Assembly: GCA_000687695.1 (NCBI GenBank)
Contig: JHWZ01000007.1
Span: forward strand, 1 to 64,000
Direction of reading: 5' to 3'
Source: Lachnospiraceae bacterium P6B14
Lineage (GTDB): Bacteria; Bacillota; Clostridia; Lachnospirales; Lachnospiraceae
Length of the DNA stretch: 64,000 nt
This document shows, in pieces, positions 13,013 through 51,860 of the stretch (position 1 is the stretch's first letter; every line of letters begins with the position of its first letter). The notes beneath the pieces were generated by a model, which ran no database searches, was not told the DNA's origin, and saw only the letters and a list, made by a program, of their open reading frames with translations. The translations under genes were made by a program, and so were the position numbers.

Positions 13013-13118
13013 TAAAAGTGCATATCTGCTCGGACACGCGAGAAACTCATAGAGTTTCTTACGTTTCTTTTATCATACGTCACGTTGCACGACACCAAAA
13101 TACGGTGTCTGCGCAACG
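13010..13118. repeat. Nested hairpin intergenic element A
   Basis: Two adjacent structures. The first pairs TGATAAAAG (13010-13018, including the copA stop) with CTTTTATCA (13067-13075) around an 8-bp hairpin AGAAACTC-ATA-GAGTTTCT. The second is the shared core module: CGTTGC (13083-13088), AC, GACACC (13091-13096), loop AAAATAC, GGTGTC (13104-13109), TGC, GCAACG (13113-13118). The same core, with compensated stem changes, is in elements C and E. No U-tract follows, so a simple terminator is unlikely. Confidence 0.8.
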
Positions 13119-13139
13119 ACTACAACTATGGGGAATAAT

Positions 13140-17853: not shown

Positions 17854-17933
17854 GCGCGAGACGCGGTCGTAGCTTTTCTTCCTCGCTCGCCCATATAAAG
17901 GGCTCCTCGGAAGAAAACTACTGCCGCTCGCGC
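17854..17933. repeat. Nested hairpin intergenic element B1 (family 1)
   Basis: Outer stem GCGCGAG (17854-17860) with CTCGCGC (17927-17933). Next GTAG with CTAC, then a 9-bp stem TTTTCTTCC (17874-17882) with GGAAGAAAA (17909-17917), and an apical GCCC-atataaa-GGGC. The internal loop TCGCTC on the 5' side is shared with element D1. It lies 6 bp after the rpoD stop. There is no U-tract. Confidence 0.75.
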
Positions 17934-17954
17934 TTCCGTAGCACTAGAGTACTC

Positions 17955-18175
17955 GCGTCCATACGGAGTAGACATCTGTTAGATCCGTAGGACCTCGGGA
18001 AAACGCCGTGTGCGAAGGGAACTCGTAGAGTTCCCGACACCGCTGCGTTTTGAAATGGAACACACGATGTGTTCATATATGCTCGAGGGCACAGCGAGAC
18101 AAGGATGACGAGCGCCGAGAGCTTATATACGCAACGTGGAGTCCGAAGGATCAACAGATGCTACGGTATGGACGC
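17955..18175. repeat. Composite nested hairpin element B2
   Basis: Perfect 10-bp outer stem GCGTCCATAC (17955-17964) with GTATGGACGC (18166-18175). Inside it CATCTGTT (17973-17980) pairs with AACAGATG (18153-18160), and GATCC with GGATC. The shell is filled with further hairpins: AAAACGC/GCGTTTT (18000-18051) around GGGAACTC-gta-GAGTTCCC, and GAACACA-cga-TGTGTTC (18058-18074). The shell arms match element E in reverse orientation. Element B1 with B2 fills the 343-bp gap between rpoD and trmK. Confidence 0.75.
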
Positions 18176-20608: not shown

Positions 20609-20623
20609 ATTACGTAAATAATT

Positions 20624-21016
20624 GAGCGGTGCGGGTGATCGCGGGCGTATTTTTACGCGCGAGGAAAGTCCGGGCTACACAGGGCAGGTTGCCGGATAAC
20701 GTCCGGCGGAGGAGACTCCCGGGAAAGTGCAACAGAAATTATACCGCTCGTCAGTTCACTTTTTAATTGTTTCACAGTCTAAAGATGGGTAAGACAGTTA
20801 AAAAGCGAGCTGGCGAGTAAGGGTGAAATGGCGAGGTAAGAGCTCACCGCTTCGGTGGTAACATCGGAGGCGTATGTAAACCCCATCCGTAGCAAGACCA
20901 AGCAGAAGACCATACGGCGGCCCGTCGTGTCTTCGGGTAGGTTGCTTGAGGCCGTCGGTAACGGCGGTCCTAGATAGATGATCACCTATTACAGAACCCG
21001 GCTTATAGCACCGCTT
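20624..21016 (+). ncRNA. rnpB: RNase P RNA component, bacterial class A
   Basis: Catalytic RNA that trims tRNA 5' leaders. Diagnostic segments: GAGGAAAGTCCGGGCT (P4 5' half region) near 20661, CACAGGGCAGGTTGCC, CAACAGAAA, GGGTGAAATGGCGAGGTAAG, GGTAAACCCCA-like joining sequence, AGATAGATGATC and ACAGAACCCGGCTTA (P4 3' half) near 20990. The ends pair: AGCGGTGC at the 5' end with GCACCGCT at the 3' end (P1). The P1 through P4 order and about 393 nt length fit type A. I see no clear promoter in the 15 bp before it. It may share the upstream transcript or have a promoter inside the kinase gene. Confidence 0.95.
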
Positions 21017-21031
21017 ATTATGTAAACTTAA

Positions 21032-21180
21032 CGGAACACACCGTAGAAACTGTTGTTCCTACGGGATCCGTTTGCACCATTCGAAAACGTAGCACTGCAT
21101 GGCACCAAAAAACGGTGCCTACGCAGTGACGTTTTCGACAGTCCCTTCGGAACAAACAGTTTCTTACTCCGTGTGTTCCG
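21032..21180. repeat. Nested hairpin intergenic element C (family 2, full copy)
   Basis: Five nested stems in 149 bp. CGGAACACAC (21032-21041) pairs with GTGTGTTCCG (21171-21180), GAAACTGTT (21046-21054) with AACAGTTTC (21155-21163), GTTCC with GGAAC, and GGGA with TCCC. TCGAAAACGT (21081-21090) pairs with ACGTTTTCGA (21129-21138). Innermost is the core: CACTGC, AT, GGCACC, loop AAAAAAC, GGTGCC, TAC, GCAGTG. It lies 16 bp after rnpB and before the M29 peptidase, filling most of that gap. Confidence 0.85.
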
Positions 21181-23287: not shown

Positions 23288-23378
23288 GCGCAATGGTAGC
23301 TTTATATCCTCGCTCGCACGAATACGAACTGAAACAGTTCGTTGTGCTCACTCGGATATAAACTACCGCCGCTCGCGC
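23288..23378. repeat. Nested hairpin intergenic element D1 (family 1)
   Basis: GCGC (23288-23291) with GCGC (23375-23378). GGTAG (23295-23299) pairs with CTACC (23363-23367), TTTATATCC (23301-23309) with GGATATAAA (23354-23362), and GCAC with GTGC. The apical ACGAACTG-aaa-CAGTTCGT is 23324-23342. The 5' internal loop TCGCTCG and flanking GCCGCTCGCGC are shared with B1. Begins 8 bp after the M29 gene stop. Confidence 0.78.
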
Positions 23379-23389
23379 ATAAGTAATTA

Positions 23390-23467
23390 GCATCGGCGGC
23401 AGGAGTATTCTCACAGCGAACCAGCGAAGCTGTGAGTCGTGAGAATAGCTCCGACAGCGCCCGATGC
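23390..23467. repeat. Nested hairpin element D2 with alternative pairings
   Basis: GCATCGG (23390-23396) pairs with CCGATGC (23461-23467), and GGAG with CTCC. The inner arm ATTCTCAC (23407-23414) can pair with GTGAGAAT (23439-23446), while the overlapping CTCACAGC (23410-23417) can pair with GCTGTGAG (23429-23436). The two inner stems share five bases, so they exclude each other in full form. Ends 33 bp before purE. Confidence 0.7.
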
Positions 23468-23500
23468 GGCTGTTATATAATTAGAATGGAGGAAAATGTT

Positions 23501-43743: not shown

Positions 43744-45429
43744 ATGAAGATGAAAAAGGTTAAGTCGGATATTGATATCGCTAAAAGCGCTAAGCTTAAG
43801 CCGATTACGGAGATTGCCGAGGGGCTCGGGATCTCTGACACGGAGATCGATCCGTACGGCAGATATAAAGCAAAGCTTACGGATGAGCTTATGGACAGGG
43901 TCGAGAGTAACCCTGATGGAAAGCTGATTTTGGTGACTGCGATCAACCCGACGCCGGCAGGAGAGGGAAAGACTACCGTGACTGTTGGTCTCGGTGAGGC
44001 TATGCAGGTTATCGGTAAAAAGGCTATTATCGCGCTCAGAGAGCCTTCTTTGGGACCTTGTTTCGGTCTGAAGGGTGGTGCTGCAGGTGGCGGATACGCA
44101 CAGGTTGTTCCTATGGAGGAGCTGAATCTGCACTTCACAGGTGATTTTCACGCTATCACAGCTGCTAATAACCTTCTGGCTGCTATGCTTGACAACCACA
44201 TCCAGCAGGGGAATGATCTTCGCATCGATCCGAAGCAGATCGTTTGGAAACGCTGCATGGATATAAATGACAGAGTCTTGAGAAACATTACTGTAGGTCA
44301 GGGTCGCAAGGTTGACGGTGTGACCAGAGAGGATCATTTCATCATCACTGTTGCATCTGAGATCATGGCTATTCTCTGCCTGTGTGCAGGTATGAAGGAT
44401 CTGAAGGAGAGACTTTCAAAGGTTATCGTTGCATATACATATGAAGGTAAGCCTGTTACTGCAAAGGATTTGAAGGCTGTCGGCGCTATGGCGGCACTTC
44501 TTAAGGATGCCATCAGACCGAACCTGGTTCAGACTTTAGAGCATACTCCTGCTTTGGTTCACGGCGGACCTTTTGCAAATATCGCTCATGGTTGTAACTC
44601 GATCCGTGCGACGAAGACTGCTCTTAAGCTTGCTGATTATACTATCACAGAGGCGGGATTCGGTGCTGATCTGGGTGCTGAGAAGTTTATGGATATCAAG
44701 TGTCGTTTCGCCGGACTTCATCCGGATGCGGTTGTTCTCGTATGTACTGTGAGAGCGCTTAAGTATAACGGCGGAGTTCCGAAGGATAAGCTGAAAGAAG
44801 AGAATCTCGAGGCATTAAAGACCGGTATTGCGAATCTGGAGAAGCACATCGAGAATATAGCAAAGTTCGATGTGCCATGTATCGTGGCTCTTAACCATAT
44901 TCTTACAGATACAGATGCTGAGATTCAGTATGTCAAGGAGTTCTGTGAGTCGAAGGGAGCCGAGTTTGCGCTTGCCGATGTATGGGCAGACGGTGGCGAC
45001 GGTGGTGTCGAGCTTGCAAATAAGGTTGTTGAGACCATAGAGAAAAAGCCGAGCAAGTATCATCCGCTTTATCCGGATTCGATATCACTCAAGGAAAAAA
45101 TCGAGACCATCGCTACCGAGATTTACGGAGCAGGCAGGGTAGAGTTTTCAAATGAGTCACTGACACAGCTTGCAAAGCTGACAGAGCTTGGATTCGGACA
45201 CTTCCCGGTATGTATGGCGAAAAATCAGTATTCGCTGTCGGATGATAAGTCCGTACTCGGACGTCCTATAGATCATGTGGTACACATAAGAGAGGTATAT
45301 GTAAGTGCCGGAGCCGGATTCGTCGTAGCTCTGACAGGCACGATTGTGACTATGCCGGGACTTCCGAAGAAGCCTGCGGCAGAGCACGTGGATGTAGACG
45401 CACAGGGCAAGATAAAAGGGCTCTTCTAA
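43744..45429 (+). CDS. fhs: Formate-tetrahydrofolate ligase
   Basis: ATP-dependent synthesis of 10-formyl-THF for purine and one-carbon metabolism, or in reverse for ATP. 561 aa, standard length. Signature P-loop [18 protein letters not shown] at residues 71-88, [28 protein letters not shown], and [25 protein letters not shown] precedes ATG 43744 by 7 bp, so the upstream ATG at 43726 is rejected. It supplies the substrate chain for folD (50956). The stop codon lies inside a hairpin shared with the convergent CAP gene. Confidence 0.97.
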
Positions 45430-45443
45430 ACACTACGTGTTTA
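45427..45443. terminator. Perfect hairpin containing both convergent stop codons
   Basis: TAAACAC-TAC-GTGTTTA. The fhs stop TAA is 45427-45429, and the CAP stop reads as CTA at 45433-45435. A TTTTT run follows at 45451-45455 on the + strand after a 7-bp gap. It is a likely weak bidirectional terminator. Confidence 0.5.
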
Positions 45444-46176
45444 TCAGAGTTTTTGGTGAGTTTTCGAAGAATACCGCGCACCAGGTCGATTTCGTCAATG
45501 CGATCGCCCCGCAGCGGTATTCTTTTCTTAACATGTTTTTTCTGTGACGATCAGAGTTTTTCCATAGCTTTACAGCCATTGCGGGCGGATGCGTGACTGT
45601 AGACCAAATCAGGTTTTCTCCGACCTTGATATGTGCAGTATAATAGCTTTGTCCGAAGAACAGCTTGGCATCGTTTTGAAGATTCTGATGTCTGTCGAAT
45701 CCGCTGCTCTTCAGTCTGAACTGAGCGAACCTGTACGCGACATCTGACCACTTGATCGGCTTTTTTTTATGTCTTTTTCTGTACTTATTCTGTCTTTTGA
45801 AGGCAAGCTTAGCGTATTTTTTTTTGTAAGTGACCAGTACTCTGACAGTGAGTTTGCGCCATTTTTTCTTGCCTTTCACTTTATACTTGATATGGAAGAT
45901 GGTTTTTCCGCGGGTTTTCGCTTTAATATCGTAGCTTCCCCAGTATTTATCGATCTTGATGGAGGCGCTGGTTCCGGTTTTCTTGACCTTGTATCTTTTG
46001 AGTCTGTCAGGTTTGGTAAAGCCGGCTCCTCTGGATGATTTGTTTATCATCATATACGATATGGTCTTTGCATTTGAAACCTTACAGCATAGAATCATCG
46101 TGCAGGACATAATGAGAGCAAGAAGAATAAGCGCTGATTCTATATGAAATATCGATTTTTTTGGGGTGCTTGTCAT
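45433..46176 (-). CDS. Secreted CAP-domain protein
   Basis: 247 aa. An N-terminal hydrophobic signal sequence (SALILLALIMSCTMILCC, about residues 13-30) is followed by a basic Lys/Arg-rich region (about 50-130) that resembles Ig-like surface modules. The C-terminal 120 residues fit a CAP/SCP domain: FKRQNKYRKRHKKKPIKWSD, FRLKSSGFDRHQN, VGENLIW, AVKLWKNSDRHRKNMLRKEYRCGAIAL, and WCAVFF. The usual HxxH/Glu cluster is only partly preserved. Function in the family ranges from binding to proteolysis and is unknown here. It has a consensus promoter and a sequestered ribosome site. Confidence 0.8.
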   Translation of the reverse strand: MTSTPKKSIFHIESALILLALIMSCTMILCCKVSNAKTISYMMINKSSRGAGFTKPDRLKRYKVKKTGTSASIKIDKYWGSYDIKAKTRGKTIFHIKYKVKGKKKWRKLTVRVLVTYKKKYAKLAFKRQNKYRKRHKKKPIKWSDVAYRFAQFRLKSSGFDRHQNLQNDAKLFFGQSYYTAHIKVGENLIWSTVTHPPAMAVKLWKNSDRHRKNMLRKEYRCGAIALTKSTWCAVFFENSPKTLINT

Positions 46177-50077: not shown

Positions 50078-50755
50078 ATGAACGATCAGTATATGATGGC
50101 GCATCAGGAGTATGCTGTGCTGCCGGGTGATGATAATAACCTGTTTGAGGGCAGCAAAGAAGAGTTTACTCATATGATGATGATGTACAATGGCGCGATC
50201 CGTGAGATGAAGACGAAGCTTCAGGTGCTGAATGATGAGCTTTCGATGACGAGAAATCGTAATCCGATCGAGTTTATCGAGACACGTATCAAAAGCCCGG
50301 ACAGTATCGCTACAAAGCTGAAGAAAAAGGGTGTTGCGCTTACCGTTGATAATGTTAAGGAGCATCTTAATGATGTTGCCGGAGTCAGGGTTATCTGCGC
50401 GTTTTTGGATGATATCTATCAGGTTGCTCAGATGTTAGAGGAGCAGGATGATGTCGAGATCATAAAGACGAAGGATTATATCAAAAAGCCCAAGAAAAAC
50501 GGTTACAGAAGCCTTCATCTGATCGCTACAGTGCCTGTGTTTTTCTCGAATGGAAGAGAGGATGTCCGTGTTGAAATCCAGATCAGGACGATCGCGATGG
50601 ACTTTTGGGCGAGTTTGGAGCATTCGGTGAAGTATAAGAGGAATGTCAGGGATGCTGAGGATATCGTCTATGAGTTGAGGGCGTGCGCGGATGTGATCAA
50701 CAGGACCGATGTGCATATGCAATCGATACGCGATAAGATCGAGTACCTGGAATAG
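50078..50755 (+). CDS. Small alarmone synthetase (RelQ/YjbM-like)
   Basis: 225 aa, RelA_SpoT synthetase domain alone, with no HD hydrolase, TGS or ACT region. It transfers pyrophosphate from ATP to GDP or GTP to make (p)ppGpp. Motifs: SIATKLKKKG, DVAGVRVICAFLDDIY, KDYIKKPKKNGYRSLHLIATVPV, VEIQIRTIAMDFWASLEHSVKYK. N-terminal 60 residues form a helical segment used for tetramerisation in RelQ. AAAGGA precedes the start by 8-9 bp. Element E begins 13 bp after its stop. Confidence 0.92.
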   Translation: MNDQYMMAHQEYAVLPGDDNNLFEGSKEEFTHMMMMYNGAIREMKTKLQVLNDELSMTRNRNPIEFIETRIKSPDSIATKLKKKGVALTVDNVKEHLNDVAGVRVICAFLDDIYQVAQMLEEQDDVEIIKTKDYIKKPKKNGYRSLHLIATVPVFFSNGREDVRVEIQIRTIAMDFWASLEHSVKYKRNVRDAEDIVYELRACADVINRTDVHMQSIRDKIEYLE

Positions 50756-50767
50756 TTTGGCACCCGT

Positions 50768-50908
50768 CCATACCGTAGCATCTGTTGATCCTACGGGCTA
50801 CGCTTACGCCATAATGAAACGCAGCACTGCATGGCTCCAAAATACGGAGCCTACGCAGTGGCGTTTCATTGAGGCCCTTCGGATCTAACAGATGTCTACT
50901 CTGTATGG
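50768..50908. repeat. Nested hairpin intergenic element E (family 2, full copy)
   Basis: CCATAC (50768-50773) pairs with GTATGG (50903-50908). CATCTGTT (50779-50786) pairs with AACAGATG (50887-50894), GATCC with GGATC, and GGGC with GCCC. AATGAAACGC (50813-50822) pairs with GCGTTTCATT (50861-50870). The core is CACTGC, AT, GGCTCC, loop AAAATAC, GGAGCC, TAC, GCAGTG (50825-50860). The shell matches B2 in reverse orientation. Fills the gap before folD. Confidence 0.85.
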
Positions 50909-50955
50909 CCGCTTGGAAACTTGTGACAATTATAATAAATTAGGAGAGTTGACCT

Positions 50956-51813
50956 ATGGCTGAAATTATTGACGGGAAAGCGATTTCTGCTCAGATAAAG
51001 GAAGAGTGCAAGGCAAAAGTTGAGAAAGAGAAACTTAACCGATGCTTGGCGGTGGTGCTGGTGGGGGATGATCCGGCATCCGCGGTTTATGTCGGGAATA
51101 AGAAGAAGGCCTGCGAGTTTTGCGGGGTGAAGAGTGTTTCTCATGAGTTACCGGCGAGTACGACTGAAGAAGAGTTGTTGAAGCTGGTGGATGACTTGAA
51201 TAGGGATGACAGTGTTGATGGCATCCTGGTTCAGCTGCCTCTTCCGGTACATATTGATGAAGATAAGGTTATTAAGGCTATTTCGCCTGATAAGGATGTA
51301 GATGGTTTCCATCCGGAGAATGTAGGTAGATTGAGTATCGGTCAGCCGGGCTATCTCTCATGTACGCCGGCAGGGATTATTCAGCTTCTGAAACGATCAA
51401 ACGTTGATATGGATGGAAAAAACTGCGTAGTGATCGGGCGTTCAAATATCGTCGGTAAGCCGATGGCGCTTTTAATGCTTCGTGAAAATGCTACGGTTAC
51501 GGTTTGTCACTCACATACTAAAGACCTTAAAGAAGTGTGCAAACGTGCTGATATCCTGATCGTGGCTATCGGTAAGCCTAAGATGATCGATGCTTCTTAC
51601 GTCAAAGATGGTGCCGTTGTTATCGATGTAGGTATCCATCGTATGGAAAATGGCAAATTATGTGGAGATGTTGACTTCGATTCAGTTGAGCCTGTCGCAT
51701 CCAAGATAACGCCGGTTCCCGGCGGCGTAGGCCCGATGACAATAGCTATGCTCATGCATAACGTCGTTTATGGTAACGGCGCAGATAAAGCCATGCCATA
51801 TGTGGTAATCTAA
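50956..51813 (+). CDS. folD: Methylenetetrahydrofolate dehydrogenase/cyclohydrolase FolD
   Basis: Bifunctional one-carbon enzyme, 285 aa. [35 protein letters not shown] (catalytic Tyr and Lys), [15 protein letters not shown], the NADP site [17 protein letters not shown], and [15 protein letters not shown]. Complements fhs at 43744: fhs makes formyl-THF and FolD reduces it to methylene-THF. GGAGAG is the ribosome site. A TATAAT occurs at 50931-50936 just after element E, but a matching -35 at the right distance is not obvious. Confidence 0.96.
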
Positions 51814-51860
51814 AGACAAATTAGCGCGTCCGATGCGCGGTTGTGATAAAGTGAGGTTTC

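Follow-up and report, generated by a model that had tools for sequence, protein, structure and literature searches.

The closest described systems are the REPs, with their GTAG or CGTC tags, and the REPINs. In the excerpts of PMC3733652, these repeats are palindromic, occur in high copy number and form head-to-head dimers, some REPs sit within longer palindromes, and the CGTC class is without a known transposase. REPs are 20-40 bp long and consist of an unpaired tag and one short stem, which in the CGTC class has 8-9 bp and a loop of 4-5 nt (PMC3733652). In another group, formed by YPAL/RU-2, ERIC, Correia/NEMIS and RPE, the repeats are stem-loops of roughly 100-170 bp that are proposed to be mobile and lie between genes, RPE being found also inside genes, and for YPAL both filled and empty sites and insertion at or beside dyad symmetry are described (excerpts of PMC2229807 and PMC10969869).

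The element presented here shares all these traits of the REPs other than their size and build, and it resembles the second group in length, stem-loop form, location between genes and proposed mobility, and YPAL also in having filled and empty sites. It differs from a REP by having a 91-nt core in a palindrome of about 150-240 nt, with a junction that bears a GNRA hairpin. MITEs are defined by shared ends, and the element resembles those of DDE transposons in that some of its lineages have terminal inverted repeats; however, whereas MITEs share ends, the element conserves its centre. It behaves like the REP/MITE repeats but inside-out, with a conserved centre and variable ends. Neither a GNRA junction nor stem-wide change is described for YPAL/RU-2, ERIC, Correia/NEMIS and RPE in the excerpts of PMC2229807 and PMC10969869, and these descriptions set them apart from the element. 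In the main text of PMC3733652, Firmicutes, Clostrid- and Lachnospir- appear nowhere.

Results

Copies of the element in the window

The window is the whole stretch of 64,000 nt of contig JHWZ01000007.1 from Lachnospiraceae bacterium P6B14. A preliminary description of this DNA had reported three short cores at 13083-13118 (copy A), 21093-21128 (copy C) and 50825-50860 (copy E), each with two 6-bp stems, an AY/TRC internal loop and an apical loop AAAAWAC, and the sequence agrees with it, including the matched double changes at four pairs, two per stem. The three cores are part of a larger dispersed element, made up of a 91-nt folded core inside arms that vary between copies and are still complementary (Table 1). 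Their presentation as three equivalent cores holds for copies C and E, which are 77% identical across 139 ungapped nt, whereas copy A is degenerate: its inner hairpin at 13083-13118 is intact, its outer junction is lost or replaced, and the R1 model matches the inner part alone. A broken fourth copy has to be added, which scores 15.9 bits with R2 (E 0.035) at 17986-18076.

Table 1. Copies of the element in the window and genes next to copy E.
Feature	Position	Strand	Remarks
Copy A, degenerate	13046..13132	(-)	R2 38.9 bits, E 4.9e-9
Broken fourth copy	about 17942..18174	(+)	inverted repeats I1, I2; copy E arms; other hairpins in core region
Copy C, full palindrome (core and arms)	21032..21180	(-)	immediately 3' of the RNase P RNA
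Copy C, 91-nt conserved core, three-way junction, GNRA strand	21059..21149	(-)	R1 106.4 bits, R2 93.9 bits
Copy C, P3 mini-hairpin	21070..21077	(-)	loop 21072-21075 = GCAA (GNRA), minus strand
RelA/SpoT-domain ORF beside copy E	50078-50755		
Copy E, full palindrome	50766..50910	(-)	between RelA/SpoT-domain ORF and folD-like ORF; site without copy in relatives
Copy E, conserved core	50791..50881	(-)	R2 93.3 bits; P3 loop 50804-50807 = GTAA, minus strand
folD-like ORF beside copy E	50956-51813		

A 30-nt core pattern with up to three mismatches found 14 matches in the own genome and 0 with the reversed control, and copy C folds with -75.1 kcal/mol compared to -36.9 +/- 3.9 for its shuffles (z -9.7; opposite strand, -85.6 kcal/mol and z -10.2). 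Pattern control and z-scores exclude chance as the origin of the cores in the window.

The RNA of RNase P (bacterial class A) occupies positions 20623-21021, and copy C follows immediately behind it. A second kind of imperfect hairpin, with similar internal mismatches, occurs in the window at 17862-17940, 23289-23385 and 23392-23480, its types being CCTCGCTCGC ... CCGCTCGCGC and GGCAGGAG ... CTCC, and one such hairpin occupies the copy E site in the related genome G061. A hairpin of GGCTCTTCTAAACACT..GTGTTTATCAGA is single in the window (45417-45448) and tandemly repeated in G061 (L264 7200-7345). Behind the folD-like gene, the window has only a short palindrome (51822-51840) where an additional hairpin of about 87 nt lies in G061 (L264 13625-13740), and this comparison suggests that a hairpin may have been gained or lost there.

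A three-way-junction core with a GNRA side hairpin

The strand given in the preliminary description is probably the complement of the folded strand. On the opposite strand, termed the GNRA strand, the core comprises 91 nt and 31 pairs folded into a three-way junction, which is closed by P1 (5 pairs). The long hairpin P2 is interrupted by a bulge of 2 nt (mostly CU) and by a bulged A, and its loop is usually the 7-nt GUNUUUU; P3 is a 2-bp side hairpin with a tetraloop. For the AY/TRC internal loop the letters had been given correctly, and on this strand they are better read as two pairs, one G.U (or G-C) and one covarying (U-A/C-G), together with a bulged A. In some copies the apical loop of P2 is swapped for another hairpin. 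Small hairpins at this place, as in L010 and L050, recur as a nested module and are of the GAAACTC..GAGTTTC or AAAACTC..GAGTTTT type.

Among the 110 distinct rows of the genus, the P3 loop is GNRA in all 108 with letters at this place (2 are without), as GCAA 64, GAAA 29, GCGA 9, GGAA 3, GUAA 1, GUGA 1 and GAGA 1. Outside the genus, a first set had GNRA in 23 of 24 distinct rows, the exception being ACAA, and a second set in 48/48 (30 genomes, 27 genera); the two sets have no row in common and together give 71/72, all these counts being partly non-independent of the models that found the rows and that mildly favour GNRA-like loops. One G.U pair is nearly fixed in the genus (99/110 rows, G-C in 10) and is partly replaced outside it. 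Mismatches of 2x2 inside the stems are readable as tandem G.A on the GNRA strand; tandem G.A mismatches are taken as sheared pairs. Because single-stranded DNA can form these loops as well, they do not prove the fold to be one of RNA.

The columns with the string CGYC (CGTC or CGCC) are Watson-Crick paired in 109/109, 110/110, 109/110 and 109/110 genus rows. Because this string is base-paired, the core has 91 nt and 31 pairs and the loop is mostly of 7 nt, the element is not a CGTC-tagged REP. The GNRA strand forms the more stable fold in 89/100 genus clusters and in 54/66 other clusters, a comparison confounded by strand composition; it is weak evidence because the two strands of random stretches of the window differ as well (median -9.9 kcal/mol).

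The element is dispersed in one bacterial family

By blastn and the pattern, around a dozen good copies had been found in this genome. With R1, a covariance model built from 28 copies with matches counted at E 0.001 or better, 64 copies were detected in this genome of 2.7 Mb, many more than the three first described. R1 matched 19 of the 39 genomes of the genus, the richest relatives having 58, 53, 36 and 28 copies, and across the order it matched 18/295 genomes, all of the same family, in 9/129 genera. The model R2, built from 48 copies of several genera, matched 138/397 sampled genomes of the family in 123/334 genera, many of them with at least 10 matches, the copy numbers per genome in this survey being lower bounds. 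In a sample of the phylum 5/398 genomes were matched by R2, of which four belong to the same family and one (G1058) to another. The carrier family is probably Lachnospiraceae: near carriers among the matches listed by the pattern scan were assemblies of rumen Eubacterium, uncultured Lachnospiraceae and uncultured Clostridiales. Two pattern hits in Paenibacillus were not matched by the covariance model and were treated as chance.

As to known RNA families, Rfam 15 gave nothing at the element: RNase P alone reached the gathering score in the window, a permissive search of four loci had no match at the element, and a search of 20 loci from other genera returned only a ZTP riboswitch. This ZMP/ZTP riboswitch (L399 2226-2356) lies directly beside a copy of the element. 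A phage or plasmid origin was considered and rejected, as copy C had no blastn match in phages or plasmids and L312 none in plasmids; a pattern scan of viral contigs did not match the element. No title or abstract among those listed from the open-licence text of PubMed Central describes the element, and of 105 papers there that contain short strings of its core, the 15 listed do not look related by title.

Stems change on both sides, in part as blocks

In an alignment of 48 diverse copies fitted to the model structure, 30 of the 31 pairs had changed on both sides and 95.1% of the cells pair. Double-changed cells numbered 396, compared to 102 in shuffled alignments (0/500 shuffles reach 396) and 44-78 in slid controls, and the covariation is far above that of the shuffles. 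When the near-fixed G.U pair is set aside, the genus has 27 cells with G.U versus 21 with A.C, and outside the genus there are 11 versus 4.

Orthologous sites of close species, with an overall identity of about 76-94%, were compared as 11 locus pairs. The core was 96-100% identical in six of them (L006/L194, L029/L173, L031/L218, L108/L172, L103/L161 and L103/L189), the sole core difference in L031/L218 being GCAA to GAAA, and 40-90% identical in the remaining five. In L012/L160 entire blocks of the stems have been exchanged while pairing was preserved; flanking pairs included, 9 both-side changes are still Watson-Crick, 2 both-side changes no longer pair and 6 changes are one-sided. The differences in L010/L163 concern the nested loop hairpin and the outer arms, and L102/L205 was compared in the arms only. 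L011/L197 and L104/L177 are very different, and a separate insertion at the same site is possible for them. Among the eight copies of genome G022 that have identical cores, two have arms in which a change on one side is matched by one on the other.

Part of the matched stem change looks like concerted copying that arrives in blocks, and template switching at palindromes or exchange between copies may be a main source of such changes. The argument is made in the same general form for RNA genes, in which template switching is described as creating and maintaining hairpins (excerpts of PMC8794818); these hairpins resemble the element in their multi-base matched stem changes, but they belong to RNA genes whereas the element is a dispersed repeat. 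The matched double changes had at first been taken as selection on base pairing. The changes themselves are borne out, and three findings weaken the conclusion, namely the stem-block swap in L012/L160, the split of orthologous cores into nearly identical and much more changed ones, and the small excess of G.U over A.C cells in the genus: because some changes arrive in blocks, matched stem changes alone are no proof of selection on RNA. The stronger sign of selection on the fold is the persistence of loops and bulges, which such copying would be expected to erase.

Copies are mobile and differ in arms and ends

G022 contains eight copies with identical 92-nt cores and unrelated flanks, of which six agree in their arms, and at least two further cores lie between arms closely similar to these. 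In G002, G015, G011, G007 and G027 the copy E site is empty, with a gap of only about 13-32 nt; in G061 and G010 it is taken up by hairpins of a different kind and in G009 by a divergent copy of the element. A 12-nt direct repeat flanks one G022 copy (L097), and no consistent target-site duplication was seen by eye in the other copies viewed. Arms and terminal repeats vary among lineages and the centre is conserved. Rearranged versions include nested hairpins, copies with deletions inside them, isolated ends and 3' ends in tandem, and L275 and L279 have the G022 3' arm without a core. Of the three readings in the preliminary description (structured RNA, processing signal, palindromic mobile repeat), the mobile repeat stands, one that carries a conserved folded core.

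That the element is an ordinary MITE of a DDE transposon, with arms matched through palindrome correction and a core conserved only through the youth of its copies, appears unlikely. Some lineages do have neat terminal inverted repeats (e.g., GGNNATTGCGAAACTC), copies with identical cores exist in G022, G433 and G363, and nested and deleted versions are what palindromes would give. Against this stands the inside-out conservation, with ends that differ by lineage and a core fold common to 123 sampled genera; because the fold spans these genera with heavily changed stems, youth alone cannot explain the core. Moreover, no autonomous copy was seen at 22 places with the G022 arm (about 185 nt upstream viewed) or in the G326-type loci viewed.

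Neighbouring copies face each other and lie between genes

Adjacent copies within 700 nt are arranged head-to-head in 20 cases, in tandem in 3 and tail-to-tail in 0, so that opposite-facing neighbours are head-to-head in 20/20; several of these 20 pairs are of common descent and one is 488 nt apart. Three places in G363 (L406, L407 and L408) have a composite about half a kilobase long, made up of two head-to-head hairpins and a common linker, with one core identical in all three and the partner altered. A linker conserved between head-to-head pairs in general was rejected, since by eye none was seen in 19 pairs except within one genome.

For placement, ORFs were called by a crude length rule and element-spanning ORFs (12 in the genus set) were ignored. 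Of 121 genus hits, 13 had no neighbour on one side and the other 108 lie between co-directional (91), convergent (16) or divergent (1) genes; with one copy per 85% cluster (n = 90) the numbers are 75, 14 and 1. Among 62 clusters outside the genus, with 7 copies without neighbour left out, 41 are co-directional, 10 convergent and 11 divergent. Siting between co-directional or convergent genes, as in REPs (excerpts of PMC3733652), is shared by the element in the genus, but outside it there are 11 divergent versus 10 convergent clusters among the 62; a general preference for sites behind genes was rejected, as it holds in the genus and fails in the larger outside set.

These placements bear on the idea that the element is a cis-acting structured RNA in transcripts, serving stability, RNase III processing or insulation and domesticated from, or riding on, a mobile repeat. 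It would fit the motifs that resemble those of RNA (the GNRA loop, the bulges and the 2x2 mismatches that can be read as tandem G.A), the single divergent site among 90 genus clusters, and the six orthologous cores that are 96-100% identical while some nearby non-coding DNA drifts more. However, in 53/75 co-directional genus clusters the GNRA strand runs antisense to the genes on either side (p 4.5e-4), and most mRNAs would bear the other strand; no such bias exists outside the genus (20/41 antisense), where 11 of the 62 clusters lie between divergent genes, and neighbouring genes are varied and sites differ between close species. We regard this function as rather unlikely.

Strict lagging-strand insertion was unsupported, with 17/25 copies oriented one way relative to the replication fork. 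GC skew and gene direction flip near 100 kb of contig C7 of G000, beyond the window, probably at the replication terminus. No common neighbour gene family was present among 110 of the 120 listed neighbours, the 10 left out being mostly from loci that mirror kept ones. The 25 commonest of the 210 Pfam families in these 110 proteins are housekeeping families, and transposase is not among these 25.

Candidate mobilising enzymes

A Y1 (REP-associated tyrosine) transposase, as in the GTAG REP/RAYT system, is disfavoured as mobiliser: PF01797 is present in 10/39 genus genomes, all with 0-4 copies, and in 0/10 of those with at least 11 copies. Reverse transcriptase is likewise disfavoured, as PF00078 (RVT_1) is missing from 6/10 high-copy genus genomes (G022, G061, G015, G008, G010 and G009); its absence from G022 and G061 also speaks against a derivative of a group II intron or retron. 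Spread by such an enzyme through an RNA intermediate, in the manner of a retro-element, would agree with the RNA-like fold, with copies without the 5' part and repeated 3' ends, and with RVT_1 in the other four high-copy genomes (G000, G002, G023 and G026), the own genome included; but G022 and G061, among the richest in copies and 98% and 96% complete, have no PF00078 match, and this route seems very improbable.

Discussion

The element is a family-wide, mobile palindromic repeat, and the conserved part is the folded core on one strand and not the ends. We lean towards the view that it is non-autonomous and that its folded single strand is recognised for movement by an enzyme supplied in trans. 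The features recognised on this strand, which may be of DNA or of RNA, would be the GNRA hairpin, the bulges and the apical loop, and the enzyme would insert copies between genes.

A further proposal, which we put forward tentatively and consider possible though doubtful, is that the element is defined by shape: a three-way-junction core, read as a folded single strand with fixed polarity, would be recognised family-wide by an enzyme of its own, and arms and ends would be freely rewritten by template switching. If true, this would be a structure-encoded mobile element with its own enzyme.

The element is a case in which compensatory changes, which commonly count as proof of selection on RNA, can be seen to arrive as a concerted block. 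Non-coding and dispersed in the chromosomes of rumen bacteria and their relatives, it occurs in about one in three sampled family genomes and is absent from Rfam 15. Its copies are hundreds of natural variants of a single fold and give a handle on the movement of palindromic repeats without a known transposase, and, with a core fold that is kept while most stem bases change, the element makes a good test case for the movement and evolution of such repeats.
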